A stretch of DNA of 64,000 nucleotides. It comes from Gracilibacillus ureilyticus (lineage in GTDB: Bacteria; Bacillota; Bacilli; Bacillales; Amphibacillaceae). The position numbers and the translations under genes were made by a program. Shown here in pieces: positions 14,958-28,671 of this stretch; the first letter of the stretch is position 1; the number at the start of each line of letters is the position of its first letter. The stretch is from the NCBI RefSeq assembly GCF_900111195.1, contig NZ_FOGL01000016.1:1-64000 (forward strand), read 5' to 3'. Under the pieces are notes generated by a model. The model had not been told where the DNA came from. It saw nothing but the letters and a program-made list of their open reading frames with translations, and ran no database searches.

Positions 14958-15233
14958 TCAAGATTGTTTATTCTGTTTTTCTAATTCGCGGGTAATTTTT
15001 TCTGATAATTCATCTATGGAGAAATCTAAAACTTGTGATAAATCTCTTATAACAGAGAAATGGGGATCTGGGTAGTGCCCTCTTTCTATCTTTCCGTAGT
15101 GCTTTTCATTAAGACCTATTTGTTCAGCGACATATTCCTGTGTCCACTTCGGATCATTATCTTTCAGCTTTTCTCTGTATGCTCTGATGCATGAACCTAA
15201 TATAATACCATTCATTTCACGCTTTACTGGCAA
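14958..15233 (-). CDS. XRE-family HTH regulator
   Basis: 91 residues; start TTG 15233 with GAGGGG eight bases upstream. The Cro/CI-type helix-turn-helix spans ~12-70, with WTQEYVAEQIGLNEKHYGKI as the core helices. The C-terminus DFSIDELSEKITRELEKQ would dimerise. It is last on the minus strand after the restriction operon and a small protein, and may control them. The start could alternatively be ATG at 15215. Confidence 0.82.
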   Translation of the reverse strand: MPVKREMNGIILGSCIRAYREKLKDNDPKWTQEYVAEQIGLNEKHYGKIERGHYPDPHFSVIRDLSQVLDFSIDELSEKITRELEKQNKQS

Positions 15234-15427
15234 GGAAAATACCCCTCATAACTTTTTAACCTCATTATCAGTTAATCAGGAATATGTGAACACACAATTA
15301 ACCACTTATTGGATTTTAACGTGGACAAGGAGCGATAATTTTGGTGTTCTAAAAAGTCACAAAAAAAAAGAACCTGATTGGCTCATTCGCAGATAGGAGA
15401 TTTCACCCTTACCACCCTACAAGTAAT

Positions 15428-15604
15428 TTATTTGTTTAATTTCCATACTCCAGCTCCAGGTACAACAACTGTTCCAGAATGACGAAGGTACGTTTTTGCG
15501 GTTTTCTCTCCAAGTAACCCTTCTTTCATTTTACGGTTAACTTCTTGTTTATAAGTTTGATACAGATCTTCTAATTGTTTAATAAATTCCTGTGTTACCC
15601 TCAC
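15428..15604 (-). CDS. 58-residue small protein between the HNH nuclease and the XRE regulator
   Basis: Start GTG 15604 with AAAGGAG about eight bases upstream, stop TAA 15428-15430. The N-terminus EFIKQLEDLYQTYKQEVNRK is a strong amphipathic helix. LGEKTAKTYLRHSGTVVVPG and a final VWKLNK follow. The codon pattern and ribosome site support a real gene. It follows the type IV restriction operon on the same strand. I do not recognise a family. It might be an accessory or regulator of the restriction genes, which is inference from position. Confidence 0.65.
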   Translation of the reverse strand: MRVTQEFIKQLEDLYQTYKQEVNRKMKEGLLGEKTAKTYLRHSGTVVVPGAGVWKLNK

Positions 15605-15769
15605 TATTACAACTCCTTTTTACTTTTAAGCATATTATAATTAGAAATGAAAAATTTGCGCAAGTAATCGATTAGTGTGATGAATGTTGTGTTTTTGATG
15701 TATTTTCAAAACAGTGTGAGTACCTTGTGGTCATATGGAATATAAACCCAACCACTCTCTTCTTAAATC

Positions 15770-16639
15770 TTATACTACGCTCTCTACATTGCCTTTATAG
15801 ACTTCTCTTATATGCCAATAGATAAATTGCTCATTTGGCAAGTAACTATTTTGAAATGGTTTGCGAATATATTGTTGATCATAGCGCTTCACCAATTCAT
15901 CAAAAGTTCCCTTTCCGACCGCTTTTTCAGATACATGGATTTTATAATCCGAAGTGATAGCAAATACTCCTCTATCAAATAATCCATGATGCAATGAACA
16001 TAATGCCAATCCGTTCTCTTCCGTATCAGGCCCACCAATATTGTGCCACTTAATATGTGCAGCTTCTAAGCCGATCAGTTGCTGATTCAACTTCACCTGA
16101 AAGCCGCAGATCGCACATTGATGTTGATAGGCACTCAAGACTTTCGCTCTGAATTCCGGGTCTCTTTTTCTTTTTCTATAATACGTCAACTGCAAACCGA
16201 CTACTTGTAATATCTCGTTATGTAAGGTTTCAGTAAAATGCTGCTCCAGTAATAAATTGGCGACTTGATCGACTAGTGCATCATCAGATTCTAACAGCTT
16301 GTAGACTTCTTCTGTGAATCCTCCTGATACATGATAGTCAATTAATGATTTGTTAAAGGAATCACTCATTAGAACTGGTTTATCCAATTCCCAAATGCCA
16401 TCCCTTTCTAATCTTACAAAAGGCTGTTCCGGATGATAAGATTTCCGTTTCGGACCATATTCTATTAATAATTCTACTAACTTCGGTTTTGCATTGGCGT
16501 ATAAGAAACGCTTCTGACGAGTTAACTGCCATTGCCCTAATGCATATAAAATCAGTAGTGGTTTATGTGGTGCTCGTTGATCTCCTTTTTTCCAAACTGC
16601 CAAATTGGATATGCGCTCTAATAATTCAGACTTATTCAC
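15770..16639 (-). CDS. HNH restriction endonuclease with sulfur-binding-type N-terminal domain
   Basis: 289 residues. The N-terminal ~140 residues carry RAPHKPLLILYALG (22-35), the hallmark of the sulfur-binding domain of ScoMcrA-type enzymes that recognise phosphorothioate-modified DNA. The HNH domain at ~165-235 has CAIC (175-178), AAHIKWHN (193-200), Asn209 and CSLHH (214-218), giving a zinc-bound beta-beta-alpha-metal nuclease. ATG 16639 overlaps the McrC-like stop by ATGA, so translation is coupled. Known relatives cut foreign modified DNA. Dependence on phosphorothioation here is a family-based expectation. Confidence 0.85.
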   Translation of the reverse strand: MNKSELLERISNLAVWKKGDQRAPHKPLLILYALGQWQLTRQKRFLYANAKPKLVELLIEYGPKRKSYHPEQPFVRLERDGIWELDKPVLMSDSFNKSLIDYHVSGGFTEEVYKLLESDDALVDQVANLLLEQHFTETLHNEILQVVGLQLTYYRKRKRDPEFRAKVLSAYQHQCAICGFQVKLNQQLIGLEAAHIKWHNIGGPDTEENGLALCSLHHGLFDRGVFAITSDYKIHVSEKAVGKGTFDELVKRYDQQYIRKPFQNSYLPNEQFIYWHIREVYKGNVESVV

Positions 16640-17913
16640 AGGTGAGACCTCCTATTACTCCTACTTAGAACCTTTACCATCCCAAAGCTTCCATTATCAA
16701 ATTCAACCTGATCTAAACACAACATTCCTTGAACCGTCACATCACTATTCAATAAGTACCTTCCTTTACGATCCTTTACCAAATAAAGATACTCAACCAG
16801 TTCTTCTAATCCCGTAGTTGCATACTCCACCCTTGATGTATTTTTTACTTCACCAATGGTCAGCTTCGTTAATTTATTTGTAATTTGATCATACGATTCG
16901 ATAAGGAAATCTGGTCTCCCTCGCCATAAATGACTAGTAACATTACGTCCAAATATACGTTGTGCTAAATCTTTGGTTGCGTCTAACGATTGAACTTTTT
17001 GCTTTAGGTAGGCATGCCCACTACCTTCAATGTCACTGGTTGGTATATGAAAAATGACAGAATCAGAGCCACTTGAATCATGGTACAAGTGATGGATATG
17101 AGAATCATCCTCCCATGTTGCTACTTTATTCTGTCCACCGTCCATTAGATGTAATTGACTCTTTTCTGTATTTTGCTTAATGATCTGAATAATCCAATAT
17201 AGTTCAAATAAGACATCTTGATTTTCTGGTGCAATAAAGGTTTCACGGAGTAAAATTTTTAAATCCTCTTCGTTGTACTGACCTTTAATTATTTTGCGAT
17301 AGGATACTAATAATTGGGCTGCTTCACGATATAATCGATTTCTATGATTCTGTGTTTTTTGAACGGTGCGGTCACTAACATGTGCTGAATGGACTCGCTG
17401 TAAATAGATATTGTGCTTACATGCGTATTCTATATTGGATTTTAACTCTTGCCATTCTGTGAACCATGCAGCCTTTTCAAATCCCTTCAGATAGGAATCC
17501 TGAAAAAGAAGTCTGTAAAGTATCCCTAGTAATTCCTTCAATACTAGATTTTCTGGTGTATCGTAAGAACGAACACTTTCATTCGTTGAAAAGATGGTCC
17601 GATCTTTATGATTTCTAGCTAAACGATGCTTCGTTGTTTCCGCCCAATCAATTTCTCCTCTTACTTCCCCGATATTTGTTTCTGTACATGTAGCTGTTGT
17701 GGTTTTAAAATGCTTGAGTAAAAAAGGTAATCTTTGAACAAAAGTCTTTGTTTCCTTTAATAATAGAAAACGTATCGTTAATAATTGTTGCAGATTAGAG
17801 ATGTTCACATTCGTTTTTGATAAAAAGGAGTTAATTCTTACATTTCCTGATTTCAAATAACCATGGAGAAACCCAGAAATCTCCTCTAAAATTTCCTCTT
17901 CTTTTTCACTCAT
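16636..17913 (-). CDS. mcrC: McrC-like restriction subunit (PD-(D/E)XK nuclease)
   Basis: 425 residues. The N-terminal half is helical and includes GEVRGEIDW, comparable to the RGxIDW block of the DUF2357/McrC group. The nuclease core lies at ~332-355: RPDFLIES, then LTIGEVKNT, giving the D...ExK catalytic set. In McrBC systems this subunit cuts DNA and stimulates the McrB GTPase. ATG 17913 overlaps the McrB-like stop by four bases. It shares only the general layout with E. coli McrC, so a distant subfamily is likely. Confidence 0.82.
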   Translation of the reverse strand: MSEKEEEILEEISGFLHGYLKSGNVRINSFLSKTNVNISNLQQLLTIRFLLLKETKTFVQRLPFLLKHFKTTTATCTETNIGEVRGEIDWAETTKHRLARNHKDRTIFSTNESVRSYDTPENLVLKELLGILYRLLFQDSYLKGFEKAAWFTEWQELKSNIEYACKHNIYLQRVHSAHVSDRTVQKTQNHRNRLYREAAQLLVSYRKIIKGQYNEEDLKILLRETFIAPENQDVLFELYWIIQIIKQNTEKSQLHLMDGGQNKVATWEDDSHIHHLYHDSSGSDSVIFHIPTSDIEGSGHAYLKQKVQSLDATKDLAQRIFGRNVTSHLWRGRPDFLIESYDQITNKLTKLTIGEVKNTSRVEYATTGLEELVEYLYLVKDRKGRYLLNSDVTVQGMLCLDQVEFDNGSFGMVKVLSRSNRRSHL

Positions 17914-19745
17914 TCCAGTCCACCAGCTTCAAAAAAGTCATTCACAAAGTCTGTTAGATATTCTTTATCAATGATTGCGTCCGTTTGTTCGTCAAGTTTG
18001 GTGATAAATTCATTCATTTTGTATATTGGTAACCCTTCAAACTGTGGCAACACATATAAGATCATCGCTGACGTAAAATCATCATTGAACTGTGTATGCT
18101 TTGCAATGTCTGAAACGATAGCTGGTCCATTTTTTCGATAGCTATTAATAAGTTTCCATATACTCGTTAATGTATCCACATTTGGATAGGTATCCATGTT
18201 CCAAGCATCTAAATACTTCTCGACTAAGTTCGGCGTAATATTTTTTGGTATGGTAACGGGAATAAAAGCGAAACGACGCATAAACGCATAACTCATTTCA
18301 TATAATGAAGCTTTATCAACCGTATTCATGGTTGCGATAATCCGCCAGTCATTCGGAATGACATAAGTATGATCATTGGTTTCAAAATCCTTTTCCTTAC
18401 CTTGGGCTTTCATCACGATAGAATGACCATTTTCTGATTCAAAAGGTAGTGTTATTTCATCCCCTGTTAAAACAGAAAATAAAGAACCAAACGCTTTATC
18501 GATATCGGCTCGATTAATCTCATCAATAATCAACCATTTATTTGTGGGCTGATTGGTAGTTGTATCCTTGACGCACTTTAAGAAGATTCCTTCATTAAAA
18601 TGTAAGTTGCCATCTTTGTCTGGCATATATCCACCAATCGTTTCATAAGTTGACCAATTAGACGATGCCGTTACCATCGATGATTGAACCTGATACATGT
18701 CGCAAATTTTGCTCGCTAGCTTCGACTTCCCTGTGCCTGGAGGACCTGTTAGAATGATATGTTTTCCATTCTGAATAGAAGTCATTACTTGATTAAGTAG
18801 AAGATCAACATTTTCAAATACTAATCCTTCCAGTTCCTTTTCAATGCTATCAATATTCACATCGAATATATCGATTTCCTGCCCATTCGTAACGTTTTCT
18901 GGATTTATAGGTGGGTTTGACTTAATTTTTTCCTCTTGCCAAACCTCCGCAATTTCAGGTGTTTTATAAAAATTAATTTGCTCATCTGGAGATTGCTCTT
19001 GAAGTTTTTCTCTAATCATTAGAAGCTGTTCATCGGTATCTTCAACGGAAGAATCTGTTATATATGAAGAAAATGCCTTTACAATTTTCCCTTTATGTCC
19101 CCAACTAGCAATCGATTCAAAGTATTCAGGTAGCAACAAGTGTAAAAATATATGTAGTGTTTGTACGCGCTTGCCAAGTCTTTGTCGGATATCATCCACA
19201 TGTCGTTTCAATTGTTTTGGATCATGTAATATTTCTTTTCGAATATCTAATGAGAGTCCTTTTAGCTTTTCTACAGCTAGAAATAGAAAGGATATTTCGA
19301 AATATTTGCTAGTATTATAGAAAGTCCCAGTAGCCCCAAGTCCGTACTTTAACGCCTCAAACACTTCTAAAGAAGGATCAATTTTTATTCGTCCCCATGA
19401 AGCGATCATTTCCAGCTTTTCCATCTTCGTTTTATAACTCACTGATCCTCTATAAGGAAACAAATAATAGATAAACATTATTTCGATCGCAAATTTATAG
19501 ACGCTTTCGGACTCATTTTCCAGTTGCTTTTTCAACTTGTCATCGAAACTGTTACCTGAAGCGTCTGGGTTTTCTATAAATATTGCTCGAAAGCGGTTCA
19601 TATTTTGCTCTGTCCAAATGTGTTCTTCGTCCCAAATGATGGACTTATTATCTAGTAAACACTTATTCTTCCATTTTTCCGCTGTGTTATAGATTGTTTT
19701 TCTGTCGTCTGTGTGATTTTCGAAGTATATAGCCAATTTTTTCAC
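17910..19745 (-). CDS. mcrB: McrB-like AAA+ NTPase of a type IV restriction system
   Basis: 611 residues. The helical N-terminal ~300 residues include HLLLPEYFESIASWGHKGKI, a block common in McrB-family proteins and thought to act in target sensing. The AAA+ module follows: Walker A GPPGTGKSK at ~334-342, Walker B/DEINRAD at ~405-411, and MNTVDKASLYEM at ~471-482, where McrB proteins carry the GTP-specific MNTxDR-type motif. FMRRFAF holds the arginine finger. It is the first gene of the operon. It probably forms the hexamer that translocates DNA and activates the McrC-like nuclease. Confidence 0.87.
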   Translation of the reverse strand: MKKLAIYFENHTDDRKTIYNTAEKWKNKCLLDNKSIIWDEEHIWTEQNMNRFRAIFIENPDASGNSFDDKLKKQLENESESVYKFAIEIMFIYYLFPYRGSVSYKTKMEKLEMIASWGRIKIDPSLEVFEALKYGLGATGTFYNTSKYFEISFLFLAVEKLKGLSLDIRKEILHDPKQLKRHVDDIRQRLGKRVQTLHIFLHLLLPEYFESIASWGHKGKIVKAFSSYITDSSVEDTDEQLLMIREKLQEQSPDEQINFYKTPEIAEVWQEEKIKSNPPINPENVTNGQEIDIFDVNIDSIEKELEGLVFENVDLLLNQVMTSIQNGKHIILTGPPGTGKSKLASKICDMYQVQSSMVTASSNWSTYETIGGYMPDKDGNLHFNEGIFLKCVKDTTTNQPTNKWLIIDEINRADIDKAFGSLFSVLTGDEITLPFESENGHSIVMKAQGKEKDFETNDHTYVIPNDWRIIATMNTVDKASLYEMSYAFMRRFAFIPVTIPKNITPNLVEKYLDAWNMDTYPNVDTLTSIWKLINSYRKNGPAIVSDIAKHTQFNDDFTSAMILYVLPQFEGLPIYKMNEFITKLDEQTDAIIDKEYLTDFVNDFFEAGGLE

Positions 19746-19883
19746 CCTTTTTGTCTGAATATAAGTTTGTGATATTCATAATTGTACCATTAATAAAGGA
19801 CGTATTCTTTAATCAGATATCTGTATGGTTTGAATGACTTTTCACCCTAATGTCACGTTTGGGAATAACGAAAATAAAATACG

Positions 19884-19911
19884 TTACATAATATCGAATT
19901 AGTGCTATAAT
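19884..19911 (+). promoter_or_regulatory. Sigma-A-type promoter of the AbiE pair
   Basis: TTACAT (19884-19889), a 16-base spacer and a perfect TATAAT (19906-19911), 24 bases before the GTG start. It lies in the 190-base gap that also must contain the promoter of the divergent McrBC-type operon. Confidence 0.65.
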
Positions 19912-19934
19912 AAAGGTGTCAGGAGGGATGTAAG

Positions 19935-20570
19935 GTGAATAAGCTTTATGAAGTTATTATAAAAGAATATGGATACGATGAGCCTGTATTTACAAAGGAA
20001 TTAAAAAAACGAATAAATATGTCAGATGAGGCCTTACGTCAAAATGTGAAAAGATTATCTGATATAGGTGATTTGATTAAAGTCAAAAACGGTATTTATT
20101 ATCTCCCAAGAGCTAGTAATATATTAAAGAAACCCCGTGTAAACATAGATAAAGTAATAAGAAGGAGATATATTAAACCGATTGATAAGAATGTAATCGG
20201 CTATATTAGTGGCACTAATTTTGCGAATCAACTTGGTTTAACTTCACAAACTGCAAGTGTGCCTACCATCGTAACAAATGAAGCAGGAAGACTTGAATAC
20301 GAAGTCACGTTTGGAAAAAAGGTCGTGAAGCTAAAGAAGCCAAGAATAAGAATTGATGAGCAGAATTATAAGCTGTTACAAGTATTGGACTTATTAAATG
20401 ATTATGATCGCGTAAGTGAAATTCCATTAGAAAAAGGGTCAAGCTTGATCAAAAAGTATTTACAAAATTCCAATATCACCATCAGCGAATTAAATCAACA
20501 CCTAAAAAAATATCCAAGGAGAACATTGGAAAATGTAATAGAAATGGAGCTTTACAATGAATTTGCATGA
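19935..20570 (+). CDS. AbiEi-type antitoxin/transcriptional regulator (DUF6088-like)
   Basis: 211 residues from GTG 19935 (AGGAGGG seven bases upstream). The N-terminal winged helix (~1-60, with DEALRQNVKRLSDIGDLIKV and GIYYLP) binds DNA. The middle domain with IGYISGTNFANQLGLTSQTA matches the DUF6088/AbiEi C-terminal fold. In AbiE systems this protein represses the operon and neutralises AbiEii without direct binding. Its end overlaps the toxin start by 14 bases. Confidence 0.82.
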   Translation: MNKLYEVIIKEYGYDEPVFTKELKKRINMSDEALRQNVKRLSDIGDLIKVKNGIYYLPRASNILKKPRVNIDKVIRRRYIKPIDKNVIGYISGTNFANQLGLTSQTASVPTIVTNEAGRLEYEVTFGKKVVKLKKPRIRIDEQNYKLLQVLDLLNDYDRVSEIPLEKGSSLIKKYLQNSNITISELNQHLKKYPRRTLENVIEMELYNEFA

Positions 20571-21546
20571 AAATAAGAAAGTGTTCGGGGAAGTCATTGA
20601 AGCTGCAGCAGATGAATTTAACTTACAATCTTTTCAGGTGGAAAAAGATTATTATGTTTCGCTATTGTTGAAAAATTTGCAAGAGGTCGTGCCTAATCTA
20701 GTTTTCAAAGGAGGGACCTCTCTTTCAAAGTGTTACGATGTCATCCATCGCTTTTCTGAAGATATTGATCTGACCATTAATTTTGAAGGAGATAAATTAA
20801 CGAGTGGTCCATTAAGAAGACATCAAAAATCATTGATTCAATTAATTACAGAAACAATAGAAAAACTAGATTTCACTTTATTAAATGATGAGCAAGATGA
20901 ACCAATACGTTCAAAAAGGCACTTCAATAAATATAGGATAGGTTATAATCGAACGTATCAGGAGGAAGCCGATTTTCAAATGTTAGATCACATCCTCATT
21001 GAAACCAGTCTTGGCTTTAAACCCTTTCCGTGCGAAATAAAGCTCGTTAGTAATTACATAACCAAATTTTTAGAAAAAGAAAATATAACTTATTTGATTG
21101 ATGAGTATAATATGCATCCTTTTTCTATGAGTATTCAGTCAATTGATCGAACGTTTTTGGACAAGCTATTTGCGGTATGTGACTACCACCATGACAAGGA
21201 TTATATCCGAAAGTCCAGACATATTTATGATATTCATATGATTTATCAAAGCGGATTAATAGATTCGACGAACTTAGCCTCTCTGACGAGCCAAATAATA
21301 GAAACAAGAAGGATGGGAAAGAAAACATACTCCTGTGAGGCTGGTTATAGACCGCGAGAGGTAATGCAAGAAATAATCGATGATGAAGTTTTTATAGAAG
21401 ATTATGAAACAAATACAAAGGAATTTCTATCAAAGTATGTTGCCTATGAGACATCTATTAATTCTTTGCAAGAGATTGTTACTAGGGGTTGGTTACCTGA
21501 AGAAATTCCTGAGGATGTAACTAGTCTTGTAACAAATTTAATTTAG
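20557..21546 (+). CDS. AbiEii-type nucleotidyltransferase toxin
   Basis: 329 residues. The nucleotidyltransferase core is GGTSLSK at ~52-58 followed by FSEDIDLTI at ~66-74, i.e. the hGGT...DxD metal-binding set of AbiEii/MenT-type enzymes, some of which add nucleotides to tRNA. A Lys-containing block (FLDKLFAVCD) and C-terminal helices follow. The gene overlaps the antitoxin by 14 bases, typical of AbiE. Likely role: abortive infection or plasmid/island stabilisation. Confidence 0.87.
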   Translation: MNLHENKKVFGEVIEAAADEFNLQSFQVEKDYYVSLLLKNLQEVVPNLVFKGGTSLSKCYDVIHRFSEDIDLTINFEGDKLTSGPLRRHQKSLIQLITETIEKLDFTLLNDEQDEPIRSKRHFNKYRIGYNRTYQEEADFQMLDHILIETSLGFKPFPCEIKLVSNYITKFLEKENITYLIDEYNMHPFSMSIQSIDRTFLDKLFAVCDYHHDKDYIRKSRHIYDIHMIYQSGLIDSTNLASLTSQIIETRRMGKKTYSCEAGYRPREVMQEIIDDEVFIEDYETNTKEFLSKYVAYETSINSLQEIVTRGWLPEEIPEDVTSLVTNLI

Positions 21547-21796
21547 TTAAAGCTGGGAGTTGGCTAGAATTAAAAGGGTTAGAAATTCATCACTTTCTAA
21601 AATCGATCCTACCATAAAGTTGAGTAAACGAAATTTAAAATTCTTTACTTCCATGTACGATTATTCATAAAAATGGTACAATTTACTAATAAACAAAGGA
21701 AATCTTAAGTCTAGGAAGCTTTATAACTTGCTTACAAGTATATGGATCTACCCCGAATCTCTCTATGTCTATTAAAAACTCAACTTATAAAAAGAG

Positions 21797-24700
21797 GTGA
21801 GAACCATACTTCACCAAGGTCTATACGAACAAATCGTAAACAAAGAACTAAAAAAAGCTCTATTAATGCTAGAAGACGACAAATTTAATATTAGTAAAGA
21901 AAAACTAGATGTAGAAGAAGCCAGCAAAAAGTTATCCAGCTATATTACAGATGTAACTCGAAAAGCATTAACAATGCTGCGTGAAAAATCCAAGAAAGAC
22001 AAATCTCTAATAAATCAAATAAAAGTATGTAATAAGATTATTCGTTACTTAAGCAAAACACTAGACGAAGAAACATTAGCATTGCTTGAAATTCAAGAAG
22101 AGGGTGAAGTTCTAACTTCTTTGTATGAAAAGTTAAATACAGCAAGCAGTCTACATCCTGGAGATGAACCGATTCGACCACTTACTTCTTTATCAGAAAC
22201 ATCCTTATTTACCGGATCTAAAAGTGAGCCAAATATGGTAAATGAATTGAAAAAGGAAATTGCAAGTTCAAATAAGGTTCAAATGCTAGTCTCGTTTATT
22301 AAATGGAGTGGTCTACGAATTATTTATGACGAATTAAAACAATTCACCGATCGTGGTGGGGAACTTCAAATTATTTCGACCTCCTATATGGGTGCCACAG
22401 ACTATAAAGCAATCAATGAATTGAGTAAATTACATAACACGAAAATCAAGCTATCTTATAATGTGAAAGTGACACGTCTTCATGCTAAAGCGTATATTTT
22501 TAAGCGTGATACGAATTTTAGTACCGCTTATATCGGTTCATCTAACCTATCTAATCCTGCCTTGACCTCTGGATTAGAATGGAATTTAAAGATCACGGAA
22601 AAAGAATCATTTGATGTCATGAAAAAAGTGGATGCTACCTTTGATTCTTACTGGAATGATGAAGAGTTCATTCTGTTTGATCCAACTAAGCAAGAGGATC
22701 ATGATGTGTTAAAAGAATCTTTACGTCCGTATCGTGCAGAAGGGAATCATTTTGCGACCTTTGATATTCGCCCTTTTCCATATCAACAGGAAGTGCTTGA
22801 TAAATTACAGGCAGAACGAGAAGTACATCATCATCATAAAAATTTAATTGTTGCTGCTACTGGTGTCGGGAAAACAGTAATTTCTGCTTTTGATTATAAA
22901 CGCTTTTTAGAAAAGAATGGACGCCCTGCAAGACTCTTGTTTGTTGCGCATCGAAAAGAGATATTAAAACAAGCATTGGAAACTTTTCGTCATATTCTAA
23001 AAGATTTTAATTTTGGTGAATTATTATTTGGTGGAGTTCGACCTCAATCGATTGATCACCTTTTCATTACGATCGACAGTCTGAACAGTAAAGAATTATT
23101 TGAACACACTTCAAGTGATTTCTATGATTATATTGTTGTTGATGAATTTCATCATGCCGCAGCAGCTTCCTACCAAAAACTATTAGATTACTATTCTCCA
23201 AAAATACTATTAGGATTGACGGCTACACCTGAACGTATGGATGGTAAATGTGTGATCAATTATTTTGATGGACGAATTGCTGCTGAAATCCGCCTTACGG
23301 AAGCCATTGATCGAAAGCTACTTAGTCCGTTTCAATATTTTGGTGTTACGGATACGGTTGATTTATCCAAAGTGAAATTCACAAGAAAGGGCTATGATCT
23401 CAAAGAATTAGAAAATGTTTATACCCATAATACCAAACGTGTTCAGCAAATTATCCATAGTGTAAACAAATATGTGACAGACATCGATACCGTAAAAGGG
23501 TTAGGTTTTTGTGTCAGTGTAGAGCATGCGAAGTATATGGCAAAGCAATTTAATGATCACGGCATTCCAAGTCTGGCATTGGACGGAAACACGCATCACG
23601 AGATACGCGATAATGCGAAGAATTTACTGAAAAAAGGGGACATCACTTTCATCTTTGTAGTGGACCTTTACAATGAAGGGGTCGATATTCCTCAGGTAAA
23701 TACGATCTTATTTTTGCGACCTACGGAGAGATTAACGGTATTTTTGCAGCAACTAGGTCGAGGGCTTCGCCTGCATGATGATAAAGAATGTTTAACGGTA
23801 CTTGATTTTATCGGACAAGCGCATAAGGAATATAAGTTTGAAGACAAATTTCGAGCATTAATTGGACGCTCTCGTCATGCGATTAAACATTATGTGGAAA
23901 ATGGATTCTCTACTTTGCCACGAGGGAGTTTTATTCAATTAGAGAAGCAGGCAAAAGATTATGTGTTAAGGAATATTAAGACGATTAAGAATTCGAAGCA
24001 AAATATCTTGATGAAACTGGAGAACTTTACCCATCACACAAGTCAGAAGTTAACGCTCGTCAATTTTTTGGAATTTTATCAACTGACAGCTTATGACTTT
24101 TATGGGCGGAGTGGAGATCGTTCCTTTTATCGTCTGTTAGTAGAAGCCGGACTATATAACGACTTCCATTATGATGAGGAGAAAGATATAACGAAACGTC
24201 TTCCTTATTTATTACACATAAATTCTGAGCATTTGTTAAGCTTTTATTTGCGGTATTTAGAGGATGGGGAAGTACGTAATCAAGAAGAGCAAGCTATGCT
24301 CAATATGTTATATTACACTATTTACCGTAAAAGTCCTGAAAAATTGGAAGTTGCTTCGATTGCAGAAGGTTTACATGAGGTATTACGAAGTAGTGAGATG
24401 AAGAAAGAAATCCAAGCCATCTTCACGTATAATTACCGTCATTTAGAACTAGTGGAAAAATCACATGATCTATCTTTCACTACGCCATTACGTGTTCATT
24501 CTAGTTATTCCACCGATCAAGTTTTGGCTGCTTTAGGTTATTATAATGAAGAGCGGCGTCCTGAGTTTCGGGAAGGTGCCATTCATCTCAAGGATAAAAA
24601 GGCAGATGTCTTTTTCATCACGTTAAATAAATCGGATAAAGATTTTTCGCCTTCTACGATGTATGATGATTATGCAATGAATGAGTGGTTATTTCATTGG

Positions 24701-24952
24701 CAGTCGCAAAGCAGAACATCAGTTACCTCAGAAACCGCTAAGCGCTATATTCATCATCGCGAGCGCAATCATAAAATCCTGTTGTTTGTGCGAGAATACC
24801 GACAAGAGAATGGCTATGCGGCTCCGTTTACTTTCTTAGGCACTACTGAGTATGTAAGGCACTCTGGAAGTAAACCGGTTAGTTTTGTTTGGAAGCTTCA
24901 TGAAAAAATGCCAGCAAAGCTTATAGTACAGTCGAATAAGAATATTTTATAA
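21797..24952 (+). CDS. PLD nuclease-SF2 helicase-DUF3427-type protein, copy 1
   Basis: Up to 1051 residues. An extra N-terminal helical region (~1-140) precedes a phospholipase-D-type nuclease domain with HAKAYIF at ~232 and IGSSNLS. The SF2 helicase has Walker A AATGVGKT at ~355, VVDEFHH (Walker B) at ~448, GLTATPERMD, and motif VI QQLGRGLR. The C-terminal ~350 residues are the DUF3427 type. The only standard start, GTG 21797, has no ribosome site. AGAGGTG would instead place ATA 21806 as start, so the start codon is odd or mutated. Probably a DNA-defence enzyme. Confidence 0.85.
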   Translation: MRTILHQGLYEQIVNKELKKALLMLEDDKFNISKEKLDVEEASKKLSSYITDVTRKALTMLREKSKKDKSLINQIKVCNKIIRYLSKTLDEETLALLEIQEEGEVLTSLYEKLNTASSLHPGDEPIRPLTSLSETSLFTGSKSEPNMVNELKKEIASSNKVQMLVSFIKWSGLRIIYDELKQFTDRGGELQIISTSYMGATDYKAINELSKLHNTKIKLSYNVKVTRLHAKAYIFKRDTNFSTAYIGSSNLSNPALTSGLEWNLKITEKESFDVMKKVDATFDSYWNDEEFILFDPTKQEDHDVLKESLRPYRAEGNHFATFDIRPFPYQQEVLDKLQAEREVHHHHKNLIVAATGVGKTVISAFDYKRFLEKNGRPARLLFVAHRKEILKQALETFRHILKDFNFGELLFGGVRPQSIDHLFITIDSLNSKELFEHTSSDFYDYIVVDEFHHAAAASYQKLLDYYSPKILLGLTATPERMDGKCVINYFDGRIAAEIRLTEAIDRKLLSPFQYFGVTDTVDLSKVKFTRKGYDLKELENVYTHNTKRVQQIIHSVNKYVTDIDTVKGLGFCVSVEHAKYMAKQFNDHGIPSLALDGNTHHEIRDNAKNLLKKGDITFIFVVDLYNEGVDIPQVNTILFLRPTERLTVFLQQLGRGLRLHDDKECLTVLDFIGQAHKEYKFEDKFRALIGRSRHAIKHYVENGFSTLPRGSFIQLEKQAKDYVLRNIKTIKNSKQNILMKLENFTHHTSQKLTLVNFLEFYQLTAYDFYGRSGDRSFYRLLVEAGLYNDFHYDEEKDITKRLPYLLHINSEHLLSFYLRYLEDGEVRNQEEQAMLNMLYYTIYRKSPEKLEVASIAEGLHEVLRSSEMKKEIQAIFTYNYRHLELVEKSHDLSFTTPLRVHSSYSTDQVLAALGYYNEERRPEFREGAIHLKDKKADVFFITLNKSDKDFSPSTMYDDYAMNEWLFHWQSQSRTSVTSETAKRYIHHRERNHKILLFVREYRQENGYAAPFTFLGTTEYVRHSGSKPVSFVWKLHEKMPAKLIVQSNKNIL

Positions 24953-25011
24953 ATAATGAATTGATTAGTGGGTGTAGTAAACACCAGGCTTATCAGTAAA
25001 TTGATGTAATT

Positions 25012-25055
25012 GAAGGTATTCCTCGTGCTAAGAGAAAATACCTTTTAACTTTTTT
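25012..25055 (+). terminator. Terminator of helicase copy 1
   Basis: AAGGTATT / AATACCTT stem with a 16-base loop, followed by TTAACTTTTTT. It lies 60 bases past the stop. Confidence 0.6.
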
Positions 25056-25300
25056 GATTTTTTCAACAGCAGGTATCTGTAGGTGCCCACACTATCGAAT
25101 CTAAATATTCTTTGGAAAGGCGTAATAATTCTTCATGTTCGCTTGCTTTAGGTGTACCTTTAAAATGGTAGATCAAATCAAATGATGTGTAAATGAATAA
25201 TAAAAGTATCATATTCATGTGTATGTTTACAGATGATCTCATGGATTGCTACCGCTGTTTCACATAGACTAAACCCTTTATCTCCTAGCCCGCAACCCAA
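25052..25300 (-). pseudogene. Decayed MutT-type NUDIX gene
   Basis: On the minus strand the pieces HTHEYDTFIIHL and then, in another frame, GTPKASEHEELLRLSKEYL and DSIVWAPTD line up with NTHEYEKFIINL, GTPVATEHAKLIWLPKENL and DSIIWAPAD of the intact MutT gene at 25346. After a further one-base shift the end reads PAVEKI (intact: PAVKEI). The NUDIX box is ruined (GDKGFSLCETAV...). At least two frameshifts are present. It points away from the intact copy and towards helicase copy 1. Confidence 0.85.
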
Positions 25301-25345
25301 ATAAATGCTATCATTAAATAAAACAATCAAACGCGGAGGATAACG

Positions 25346-25756
25346 ATGAAAAAAACCGTAAAAGTTGTAGCTGCCATAATAGAAAACAACCAAAATGAAA
25401 TTCTTTGCGCCTTACGTTCCCACCAAATGTCCATTCCAAACAAATGGGAGTTCCCTGGTGGGAAAGTAGAGGAAGGCGAAAACTACCAAGAAGCTCTTGA
25501 AAGGGAAATTAGTGAAGAACTGAAATGTAAAATTAAAGCTGGTGATATTATCAATGATAATACGCATGAGTACGAAAAATTTATCATAAACTTAATTTCT
25601 ATTGAAGCCAAAATCGTTGAAGGTACACCAGTTGCAACAGAGCATGCAAAGCTAATCTGGTTGCCAAAGGAAAACCTAGATTCGATTATTTGGGCACCTG
25701 CAGATATCCCAGCAGTTAAGGAAATAATGCAAGCAAATGAAGGAGCACCCCAGTAG
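25346..25756 (+). CDS. MutT-type NUDIX hydrolase
   Basis: 136 residues. The NUDIX box GKVEEGENYQEALEREISEEL spans ~38-58 with every catalytic Glu in place (GX5EX7REUXEEXGU pattern, slightly relaxed at the end). The N-terminus VVAAIIENNQNEILCALR and WEFPGGK match 8-oxo-dGTP diphosphatases of the MutT group, which cleave oxidised dGTP to the monophosphate. It converges on helicase copy 2 with a shared terminator. The pairing with PLD-helicases occurs twice here, so it may serve that system rather than housekeeping. Confidence 0.87.
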   Translation: MKKTVKVVAAIIENNQNEILCALRSHQMSIPNKWEFPGGKVEEGENYQEALEREISEELKCKIKAGDIINDNTHEYEKFIINLISIEAKIVEGTPVATEHAKLIWLPKENLDSIIWAPADIPAVKEIMQANEGAPQ

Positions 25757-25766
25757 TGCTCCTTCA
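25739..25766. terminator. Bidirectional terminator between MutT and helicase copy 2
   Basis: Perfect 10-bp stem GAAGGAGCAC / GTGCTCCTTC with a 7-base loop; it overlaps the MutT stop. It serves two convergent genes. Confidence 0.7.
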
Positions 25767-25776
25767 ATAAATCACC

Positions 25777-28599
25777 CTACACCTTCTCTGTAAATTCAGT
25801 ATATAGTCTAGCTGGCACTTCATTTTCCAGTTCTATTTTAACCTGTATAGGTTGTTCTCCTTTGTAATCCACTGTGTTCCCTTTTCCAATATAAATAAAT
25901 GGTTCCGTCTTACCTGTTTCAATTTGCTTATATTTTCTTACAAACAAATGCAAGTTGATGCCTCTGTCCTGATTGAAAATGATATTTTTCCCACGATCAG
26001 ATGACTGTTTCGTATTATTCGGTGTTTCCCATTGGAAGAACTTCTGATCTAGAAACATATCATTATAATTAATGCTTTCTTTTATATCCTCTTCTTTATG
26101 CAGATCAACAAAAAGGAAATATTCGTTCTCATTTGCTAGTAATCCTTGTCCTCTAAAAGAAGTGTGTATCTTCCGCAAATTGGATAACAATGCGGCATCA
26201 ATCATTTGATATTGTTCATATAGCTTAAATGATGGCACACCATAGTATTTATTCTTAAACTCCTTTCTATAACGGAAAATACCATAATGAATAATATCTT
26301 CAATAAATTTTTGCATTTGATCGTTTTGTGTGATCACCTGAAGAAAGTCATCTGTTTTGGTCAAAACTCCATCTTCATGGCTACATAACTTAAGCTTGTT
26401 CTTGAGCTGTACACTATCATAGAAATCCTGATTTAAGCATTGGAATGCGTGCAGCACACTATCATCATCTACAAATTCAATTTCTTTTAATATCTCTTGT
26501 TTTGCTTGCGACAAAGAAATTGACTTATGTGTTAACAAGTAACGTAGTATAACGAACTCATAAATCCTTTTTAAAGGTAGCATACTTGATAATTCTTTTA
26601 GCACCCCTTCAAATTTTTCATCATATAACAATACTTTTAACTGATCGTCCTTTTCCACTTTCGCAACAAAGCCTAAATAGGTCTTCGCCTTATCGATAAA
26701 TTTCACAGGATCTGGTGCACCATCATATTTTAAATAATCCATTAAATATAATGGCGCTCTTCCGCTGTTTAGTTTTTTAAATTCAAAGTACTCTTCCTTC
26801 AAATATTTCATCGAGTTGAAATTTTCTTGATCAATCTGTGCTAAAATTCGCTCTTGGGAGATTTCATCTAATTGGATATGTGTGTTCCCAGGTATATTGG
26901 CGAACCCTGTGGAGATGGCCACTTTAATACTTTCTTTGTCATAATATCTGTTACCATTAAGAGCTAGGGCAATTAAGAAAGTTTTACTATGGTTACCGAT
27001 AAAATCAAGAACAGTTAGAAAGCTTTTCATCGGATGTTTACGCAACCCCCTCCCTAACTGTTGAATAAAGACAATCGGTGAATTGGTTGGTCTTAGCATT
27101 AACACTGTGTTAATTGATGGGATATCGACACCCTCATTGAAAATATCAACTGTAAAAATAACCGATAATGGGTCACTTTCATCTTCTAATCGTTTTATGT
27201 AACTGTCGCGTTTGATGATCGAATCCGTACCATCTAAGGCGACACTCTCATATCCTCTATTATTATACTCTTCTGCCATATAAGCAGCATGCTCTCTACT
27301 TACACAGAAACCAATACATTTCCGTTTCTCTGTATCATGGCCATAAAACTCCATATTTTCAATAATAAAATCTACACGTTCATTGACCTTTAATCTTTTC
27401 GTTACTTCCGTTATATCATCAATATCGACATCACTAAGATCGACTCCTTCAATATCGGTGACGCCAAAATAATGGAATGGAATGACTAATTCTTCTTCTA
27501 GTGCCTCATGTAAGCGAACTTCTAATGCGACATTGTTATCAAATAGATCGAAGACATTATGATTATCTGCACGCTCAGGGGTTGCTGTCATACCAAGTGT
27601 GAATGTAGGCTGAAAGTATTCCATCACTTTTTGATAACTAGGGCTAGTTGCATGATGGGCCTCGTCATAGATAATATAATCAAATGTAGTCGGATCAAAT
27701 GCTAAATAGGAGTTGGACATTGTCTGAATCGTAGCAAATAAATAATTAGCATCTGTATCTTTTCGGTTACCAGTCATTAATCCAAATGTTATTTTTTCAT
27801 TAGGTAATAGTGACTCATAGGTATCTTTTGCTTTGCGCAATATTTCTTCTCTATGTACAAGAAATAGCAGTCTTTTTGGCTTCACATTTTTCACATCAAA
27901 TGCTGACATGTAAGTCTTCCCTGTACCTGTTGCGGCAATAACCAATGCTTTTGATTCACCAAAGCCTCGAAGTCTATCTAAATTTTCTATCGCTCTTCGT
28001 TGCATATTGTTAGGTATAATATAACTTCCTTTTTCAGCAACGAATTGTCTCTTTGATGTGATGATATTTTCCATGCTTTGCAATAGCTCTTCATATCTTG
28101 TAAGAAAATCTTGATCTGCTACCGTACTTTGCTCCCATAGGCTCTCATATTCTTTTAATACTTGTTTAATGAATTGATCTTCATGCTTGGAGATAATCTC
28201 CACATTCCATTCGACGTTACTTTTTAACGCGCTTTGTGTAATATTGGATGAGCCAATAATCACTTTATAGAAATTTTCATATTCAAAAATATAAGATTTA
28301 GTATGAAAACCTATTTCTCGCTCATCTGTCACAAACACTTTCAAATCAATATTTTCAAACGTATTTATTTTTTCTAATGATTTGGTGTCAGTGAAATTGA
28401 GATAGGTGGATGTTATAATTTTCCCTTTAATTCCTTTTTTGCCGGCTTGCTTGATCGGATCAAGCAGTAACTGAAGCCCACTGAAATTTATAAATGCTAC
28501 ACTAAAGTAAAAGCGTTCACACTCCTGAATGCTTTGTGCTAATTCTTTTAGTAGGTTTCCCGTATCGGAATTGGTGATTAACCTTTTGTCTATGTTCAT
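25777..28599 (-). CDS. PLD nuclease-SF2 helicase-DUF3427-type protein, copy 2
   Basis: 940 residues from ATG 28599 (GGGGG seven bases upstream). The PLD-type nuclease domain comes first, with FHTKSYIF at ~98-105 and IGSSNIT. Then comes an SF2 helicase with Walker A AATGTGKT (~223), YDEAHH (~312), GMTATPERAD and QQLGRGLR. The DUF3427-type C-terminus has LHLFVRKY and a PARLYTEF ending. It lacks the ~140-residue N-terminal extension of copy 1 and is strongly diverged from it. It probably unwinds and cuts foreign DNA, which is inference. Confidence 0.88.
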   Translation of the reverse strand: MNIDKRLITNSDTGNLLKELAQSIQECERFYFSVAFINFSGLQLLLDPIKQAGKKGIKGKIITSTYLNFTDTKSLEKINTFENIDLKVFVTDEREIGFHTKSYIFEYENFYKVIIGSSNITQSALKSNVEWNVEIISKHEDQFIKQVLKEYESLWEQSTVADQDFLTRYEELLQSMENIITSKRQFVAEKGSYIIPNNMQRRAIENLDRLRGFGESKALVIAATGTGKTYMSAFDVKNVKPKRLLFLVHREEILRKAKDTYESLLPNEKITFGLMTGNRKDTDANYLFATIQTMSNSYLAFDPTTFDYIIYDEAHHATSPSYQKVMEYFQPTFTLGMTATPERADNHNVFDLFDNNVALEVRLHEALEEELVIPFHYFGVTDIEGVDLSDVDIDDITEVTKRLKVNERVDFIIENMEFYGHDTEKRKCIGFCVSREHAAYMAEEYNNRGYESVALDGTDSIIKRDSYIKRLEDESDPLSVIFTVDIFNEGVDIPSINTVLMLRPTNSPIVFIQQLGRGLRKHPMKSFLTVLDFIGNHSKTFLIALALNGNRYYDKESIKVAISTGFANIPGNTHIQLDEISQERILAQIDQENFNSMKYLKEEYFEFKKLNSGRAPLYLMDYLKYDGAPDPVKFIDKAKTYLGFVAKVEKDDQLKVLLYDEKFEGVLKELSSMLPLKRIYEFVILRYLLTHKSISLSQAKQEILKEIEFVDDDSVLHAFQCLNQDFYDSVQLKNKLKLCSHEDGVLTKTDDFLQVITQNDQMQKFIEDIIHYGIFRYRKEFKNKYYGVPSFKLYEQYQMIDAALLSNLRKIHTSFRGQGLLANENEYFLFVDLHKEEDIKESINYNDMFLDQKFFQWETPNNTKQSSDRGKNIIFNQDRGINLHLFVRKYKQIETGKTEPFIYIGKGNTVDYKGEQPIQVKIELENEVPARLYTEFTEKV

Positions 28600-28671
28600 C
28601 TGTATGCCCCCTAGATACAAACACTTCTAATAAAATATCTATTTTTTTAGTATACTATAGTCCTAGATCAA

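Follow-up and report, generated by a model that had tools for sequence, protein, structure and literature searches.

The window, i.e., the 64,000 nucleotides of Gracilibacillus ureilyticus DNA at positions 1 to 64,000 of contig NZ_FOGL01000016.1, carries two genes for proteins with a PLD nuclease and a superfamily 2 (SF2) helicase motor, and between them one intact and one decayed gene of the MutT type, called Nudix below. This layout of helicases and MutT genes, with positions and directions, had been described in the original prediction, and the open frames were located as described there:

21797-24952, plus strand: helicase copy 1, open frame of 1051 amino acids
25075-25252, minus strand: Nudix remnant, two tblastn pieces in different frames
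25346-25756, plus strand: intact Nudix gene, open frame of 136 amino acids
25738-25766, no strand given: 12-pair hairpin between the converging stop codons
28599-25777, minus strand: helicase copy 2, 940 amino acids, ATG at 28599

The start of copy 2 at 28620 in the list of open reading frames is merely the first TTG. The stop codons of the Nudix gene and copy 2 are 20 bases apart, and the hairpin is a possible candidate for a shared terminator; two terminator-like matches were found in the region as compared with a shuffle mean of 1.8, i.e., no excess. In the following, G codes designate genomes and L codes loci, and G000 is the genome carrying the window.

SauUSI cleaves DNA with 5-methyl- or 5-hydroxymethylcytosine. 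Like SauUSI, both window copies combine in a single chain the PLD nuclease, the SF2 motor and a DUF3427/SRA-like reader (Pfam PLDc_2, ResIII and DUF3427 in copy 1). DUF3427 was over the cut-off in both copies, with 221 bits in copy 2, and about 140 additional N-terminal residues distinguish copy 1 from SauUSI and from copy 2. The PLD nuclease motif HxK..GSSN and the SF2 motifs Walker A and QQLGRGLR are present in both copies, with DEFH in copy 1 and DEAH in copy 2. The best PADLOC models were mREase_IV PDLC03659 for copy 1 (786 bits) and mREase_IV PDLC03658 for copy 2 (553 bits), both described in PADLOC as 'type IV methyl-directed restriction enzyme'. The best solved relative of both copies was PDB 7clg (E 6e-89 for copy 1 and E 1.2e-164 for copy 2), which we take to be SauUSI by its fit with PMC7913695. 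As judged from these matches, copies 1 and 2 are SauUSI-type, i.e., type IV, modified-cytosine-dependent restriction enzymes, a point missed in the original prediction. Its proposal that two diverged defence-type systems sit side by side agrees with the match of both copies to type IV enzymes and with their identity of 30%. A recent inverted duplication as the origin of the pair was ruled out, because the helicases are this distant and the longest inverted repeat reported was 41 nt at 73%.

In the available passages of the SauUSI structure paper, Phe841, Asp858 and Trp868 are proposed to hold the flipped base (PMC7913695). By sequence alignment, this pocket is common to SauUSI and both window copies, and the two copies likely read modified cytosine. 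Against this, Tyr831, the proposed methyl contact in SauUSI, is replaced in both copies (copy 1 has Ala, copy 2 has Leu), and Trp868 is changed to Ala in 17 of the 78 enzymes from the wide set described below. Tyr831 is missing from 11/63 and 24/78 relatives too. Because this residue is replaced in both copies, we claim family membership alone for them and not the exact specificity for 5-methylcytosine. As expected for a cell with a SauUSI-type enzyme, no C5 methylase was found in G000 (no PF00145 match at E 1e-10).

The product of the intact gene is, by its sequence, a Nudix hydrolase of the PADLOC PDC-S07 family and the partner of copy 2. It matched PDLC04899 (PDC-S07) with 170.6 bits and was the single strong Nudix in G000 (one match at E 1e-30 or better). 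Its PDB matches were 5x1x (E 4e-34), 3gwy (3.6e-18) and NudG 2rrk (4.6e-18), and an AlphaFold2 model (mean predicted local distance difference test score 94) showed the Nudix fold. The residues of the Nudix box GX5EX7REUXEEXGU are present as G39, E45, R53, E54, E57 and E58, with K60 in place of the last G, and the catalytic residues of the box were almost invariant across the Nudix proteins aligned. Tyr76 is retained in 167/167 Nudix proteins, and Asp120 in 165/167; the latter aligns with an Asp of 3gwy, NudG (2rrk) and MutT2 (5zrc), and its position presumably serves base recognition, after NudG Asp118 and MutT Asn119. E. coli NudG and mycobacterial MutT2 are known as stand-alone housekeeping enzymes. 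NudG (Orf135, 2rrk) and MutT2 (5zro, with 5mdCTP) differ from the window Nudix in having Val or Asn where it has Tyr76, and the window Nudix missed the cut-offs of the NudG equivalog NF007834 (97.4 bits, cut-off 156) and the MutT equivalog TIGR00586 (73.3 bits, cut-off 97.9).

An assayed relative of the same Nudix subfamily, which shares Tyr76 and Asp120 with the window protein, is Bacteroides fragilis Q5LBB1 (PDB 3gwy). According to the available passages of PMC5158307, its kcat/Km is 4.8e6 M-1 s-1 on 5-methyl-deoxycytidine triphosphate (5-Me-dCTP) and 4.4e6 on 5-MeOH-dCTP. Its identity is 56% with one enzyme-linked Nudix and, over 129 residues, 37% with the window Nudix, and it differs from the latter in that it is known by a hydrolase assay, while the window Nudix is known by its SauUSI-type gene context. 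From this kinship, we infer that the window Nudix hydrolyses 5-modified dCTP. The original prediction had suggested that MutT destroys a modified or oxidised nucleotide or a signal; the modified nucleotide agrees with the activity of assayed relatives on 5-methyl- and 5-hydroxymethyl-dCTP, and no specific evidence was found for an oxidised nucleotide or a signal. PADLOC treats the PDC-S07 Nudix as a candidate system of its own, whereas it stands in the pair in most of the present cases. At E 1e-30 or better, PDLC04899 also matches in five control genomes, among them E. coli. PDC-S07 was counted in 99.06% of Enterobacter genomes (PMC12851794, in the part available), and since the model matches E. 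coli this well, such published counts probably record housekeeping nudG.

The occurrence of a Nudix gene within 6 kb of the enzyme was counted in three samples, i.e., 159 genomes from the family, 398 from the class (seven of which are, by handle, also in the family sample) and a many-phyla collection with one genome per species. The p-values for these associations ignore kinship. In the family, DUF3427 was present in 67/159 genomes, and 60 of 66 enzymes (>90 bits) had an adjacent Nudix; among the 60 are G115, whose Nudix is cut by a contig end, and window copy 1, for which the Nudix of copy 2 was counted, and the count sets apart four DUF3427 matches below 90 bits and does not enter a second G153 piece. 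Two of the six misses (G003 and G116) come from a split gene and from a contig end, and a Nudix lies beside the other part. A Nudix was found in 62/64 family genomes with the enzyme versus 12/95 without it (p 3.5e-29). In the class, 97 of 124 enzymes were adjacent to a Nudix (eleven matches below 88 bits and a second G419 piece are not counted), and the corresponding genome numbers were 102/122 versus 43/276 (p 2e-39). Divided by DUF3427 score, adjacency in the class was 60/66 above 200 bits, 32/33 at 120-200 bits and 5/25 below 120 bits (copy 1's kind; window copy 1 is among the five, and 19 of the 25 are full-length), so that 92 of 99 SauUSI-like enzymes had an adjacent Nudix. The wide set consists of the best 80 of at least 575 confirmed loci from the many-phyla collection and is tilted to relatives of the queries, which were 14 enzymes of the family; 68/80 of these loci had a Nudix, and seven of the 12 misses have less than 1 kb of sequence on at least one side. 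Some Nudix rows were flagged with one internal stop, and two of these, G065 and G169, proved on inspection to have full-length frames. MutT had been predicted to be a functional partner of such helicases, and the neighbourhood count that was proposed as its check gave strong enrichment in all three samples.

The two genes are directly adjacent, and they often overlap or lie less than 120 bp apart (34 upstream cases, -47 to 114 bp). In Staphylococcus aureus NZ_CP077890.1, a Nudix of the same kind, identical to PDB 5x1x over 128 amino acids, lies directly upstream of the SauUSI gene on the same strand; the latter matches 7clg in pieces, with identity over 302 residues, and no PLSDB gene is listed there. 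In genus g76, whose enzymes are 58-76% identical to the S. aureus SauUSI segment, the pair genes overlap or are at most 4 bases apart in 10/10 genomes. The pair was also found on two plasmids typed as mobilizable. By BLAST clustering, a Nudix occurred at 63/80 wide loci and the next neighbour family at 9/80. A PLD-helicase of about 810 amino acids without DUF3427 adjoins some SauUSI-type genes (L009 1509-3935, L023, L048, L163 and others) and occurs in 12/159 family genomes. In a small control inspected by eye, no strong Nudix was found within 6 kb of this paralog where it has no nearby enzyme-Nudix pair (G011, G012, G013, G016 and G137).

On the side of copy 1, the left-pointing MutT is probably, by its sequence match, the C-terminal remnant of the former partner of this enzyme. 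At locus L056 of the same genus, a helicase 95% identical to copy 1 adjoins a Nudix, and tblastn with this Nudix gave two pieces in two frames of the minus strand at 25252-25181 (24 residues, 83% identical) and 25164-25075 (30 residues, 70% identical), with E about 1.5e-19. Residues 1-62, including the Nudix box, were absent from the tblastn search result. The window's own Nudix as the query scored 42 bits at the remnant, while 100 codon shuffles reached at most 20.4 bits. The prediction that one of the two systems has lost its MutT was thus borne out. Enzymes of copy 1's kind pair with a Nudix mainly inside the family (16/19, the window's own copy 1 left out) and much less in the class, where the pairing is not obligatory. 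In 13 copy-1-type loci without a Nudix, the neighbours in common were the enzyme and some scattered families, small or paralogous, and no alternative partner emerged. This kind has Val or Ala at position 831 in 31/32 and Glu at 829 in 30/32, and these differing reader residues may be the reason why it often occurs without a Nudix.

We lean somewhat towards a two-gene type IV system, in which the SauUSI-type enzyme is accompanied by a Nudix that cleans the nucleotide pool and protects the cell's own DNA. In this scheme, 5-modified dCTP would be supplied by breakdown of modified foreign DNA or by phage kinases and would be accepted by polymerases. Its incorporation into the chromosome would give the host the mark that its own enzyme attacks; the Nudix would hydrolyse 5-modified dCTP to the monophosphate and so keep the mark off its own DNA. 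As an immunity gene, it would act one step before the target, on the metabolite from which the mark derives, and would not have to bind the enzyme. By a rough count, SCNGS occurs about 6,700 times per Mb of the window, and therefore one modified cytosine per 10,000, at random, would leave about five target strands marked in each genome. In the window, copy 2 keeps its partner, and the decay of copy 1's partner would be tolerable if one diffusible Nudix activity serves both enzymes.

The pattern of broken genes and of unpaired genes bears on this proposal. The enzyme was broken or a stub beside an intact Nudix at eight loci (G010, G027, G030, G035, G036, G052, G061 and G377; errors of sequencing or assembly could account for the break in G035 and G052). 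These eight do not include G391, G392, G419 and G526, where a short enzyme frame adjoins a Nudix. The reverse, a broken Nudix beside an intact enzyme, was met in the window alone, which has a second Nudix, and in G008 both genes are broken. When 25 Nudix-less loci were searched for Nudix remnants, weak short matches and none convincing were obtained; the match at L165 (5e-11) falls outside the Nudix part of the query. Every intact canonical enzyme (DUF3427 >200 bits, full-length frame) of the family was in a genome with a Nudix. Self-protection is favoured because the enzyme is usually the broken gene (8 loci versus 1), and because the canonical enzyme is rarely found without a Nudix while a Nudix alone is found in 54 genomes. 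It is also possible that the Nudix is a second weapon, which destroys phage-made 5-hydroxymethyl- or 5-methyl-dCTP while the enzyme cuts the finished phage DNA. The same pairing and substrate evidence applies to it, and PADLOC lists this Nudix family as a phage-defence candidate; however, it predicts by itself neither the excess of broken enzymes nor the rarity of canonical enzymes without a Nudix, and we regard it as unlikely.

Several observations weigh against the self-protecting pair. Two intact canonical enzymes of the class (G364 and G434) are in genomes without a Nudix at E 1e-30, five wide misses have sequence on both sides (L086, L129, L135, L140 and L159), and 20 of the 25 class enzymes of copy 1's kind are without a Nudix (14/19 among full-length frames). 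The supply of 5-Me-dCTP from foreign DNA is a postulated step in these bacteria, and NudG and MutT2, in the passages available on them, also accept CTP or dCTP. In addition, the Nudix was present without the enzyme in 54 genomes (12 of the family and 43 of the class, one in both).

The last two points agree with a third explanation, i.e., that the Nudix is a general house-cleaner for CTP/dCTP, 5-hydroxy-dCTP or 8-oxo-dGTP that sits in defence islands, linked to the enzyme by shared mobility and not by function. In one genus, moreover, it occupies a common site among metabolic genes in five genomes (L072-L075 and L080). On the other hand, general house-cleaning does not account for the direct adjacency of the genes, in three gene orders across phyla, nor for the fact that other neighbour families reach at most 9/80 loci. 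Around the 15 unlinked family Nudix genes, no PF02384 or PF01555 methylase match was found by eye within 10 kb, and in the class no match to PF02384, the N6 control, was found by eye within 10 kb of an unlinked Nudix, the nearest being at 10.1 kb in G546. General house-cleaning appears slightly less probable than a second weapon.

C5 methylases gave a different picture in the family, where 6 of 15 places with an unlinked Nudix are within 10 kb of one, as compared with 0/70 for the next-best Nudix among the matches listed (p 1e-5). In the class, 1 of 52 places was near a C5 methylase (G287 was not searched for methylases), and a direct link of the unlinked Nudix to 5-methylcytosine restriction-modification was therefore rejected; combined, the numbers were 7/67 versus 0/70 among the matches listed (p 0.006). 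Since two of the six family places (G010 and G061) hold remnants of SauUSI-type genes, part of the link may be a leftover of such lost genes. At four loci (G010, G030, G036 and G061) where an intact Nudix adjoins a broken SauUSI-type gene, a C5 methylase gene is found no more than 4.3 kb from the Nudix, as would be expected if a cell cannot both methylate its DNA and keep the enzyme. C5 methylases were found in 18/57 genomes with intact SauUSI-type genes versus 70/102 others, a negative association (p 1e-5, kinship ignored) for which seven broken or split cases were moved by hand to the second group. The unlinked Nudix at L067, L068, L069 and L076 stands beside a MutH/Sau3AI-type enzyme, a C5 methylase, DISARM DrmA/DrmB or a Vsr endonuclease, and at the Vsr-adjoining locus a C5 methylase is 3.6 kb away.

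The 68 wide pairs comprise 28 with the Nudix upstream on the same strand, 21 with it downstream and convergent, and 19 with it downstream on the same strand. In a tree built from 59 enzyme-linked Nudix proteins of the family and an outgroup, there is a single change of gene order, and the kind of enzyme changes about nine times by a parsimony count. This count is weakened by the low support of 28/57 inner branches, by the three partner changes that well-supported branches force for either convergent group, and by a wider FastTree of 171 rows, with 13 changes of gene order and 12 of enzyme kind. Because the Nudix exchanges enzyme partners on the tree, action on a small molecule suits the data better than a bound subunit, and self-protection is favoured for the same reason. 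A Nudix that is a direct subunit or regulator of the enzyme, e.g., a nucleotide sensor that switches the motor, would explain the tight gene coupling in the ten SauUSI-like loci of genus g76. However, partner exchange, the nearly invariant catalytic residues and the cleavage of DNA in vitro by SauUSI alone (available passages of PMC7913695) make this role very improbable. Convergence is one of the three gene orders, the mirror layout of the window was met nowhere else among the loci fetched, and G027 of the same genus has both kinds of pair in tandem and in one orientation (locus L032). With no long inverted repeat, the mirror image that the original prediction had emphasized was therefore rejected as a conserved unit; the unit is one enzyme and one Nudix gene, and the mirror image is incidental.

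The window from 14958 to 28620 is a dense island of modification-dependent defence, in which the following genes precede the two SauUSI-type enzymes:

15770-16639: phosphorothioate-dependent SBD-HNH enzyme (NF045808, 360 bits, cut-off 180)
16636-17913: unnamed protein of 425 amino acids, adjoining the next
17910-19745: McrB-like AAA protein (61 bits to the McrB model, cut-off 637)
19935-21546: AbiEi/AbiEii

At other loci, a pyrophosphohydrolase of about 112 amino acids lies near the SauUSI-Nudix pair (L018, L106, L115, L139, L148, L162, L192 and L206; annotated 'nucleotide pyrophosphohydrolase' in L206), and in L082 it stands beside broken remains of both pair genes. These neighbourhoods thus hold, besides the Nudix, another nucleotide-cleaning enzyme that is unrelated to it; we take it to be MazG-like, and the helicase that accompanies it at most of these loci to be DUF2075-like.

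A figure legend in PMC7641849 notes that, in Streptococcus, homologues of MutT adjoin those of SauUSI; no explanation is given in the passage available. No other mention of the enzyme-Nudix pair and no paper explaining it was found in searches of the open-licence PMC literature; the available part of the SauUSI structure paper, PMC7913695, does not mention the Nudix partner or pair 'SauUSI' with 'nudix'. SauUSI is a known gene-transfer barrier and, in the passages available, is treated as a one-gene system. The SauUSI-type identity of the helicases gives the Nudix partner a specific logic. The question at stake is how cells that destroy modified-cytosine DNA avoid damage to themselves when modified nucleotides are salvaged; it becomes testable through a second gene that is conserved and whose substrate can be predicted. 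We suggest tentatively, with a little less than even confidence, that modified-cytosine restriction enzymes travel with a metabolic antidote, a Nudix that removes modified dCTP so that the mark keeps its foreign meaning, and that this applies to S. aureus SauUSI and its relatives in archaea and several bacterial phyla. If true, the pair would follow a logic like that of toxin-antitoxin systems, but the antidote would remove the precursor of the target and would not bind the toxin.

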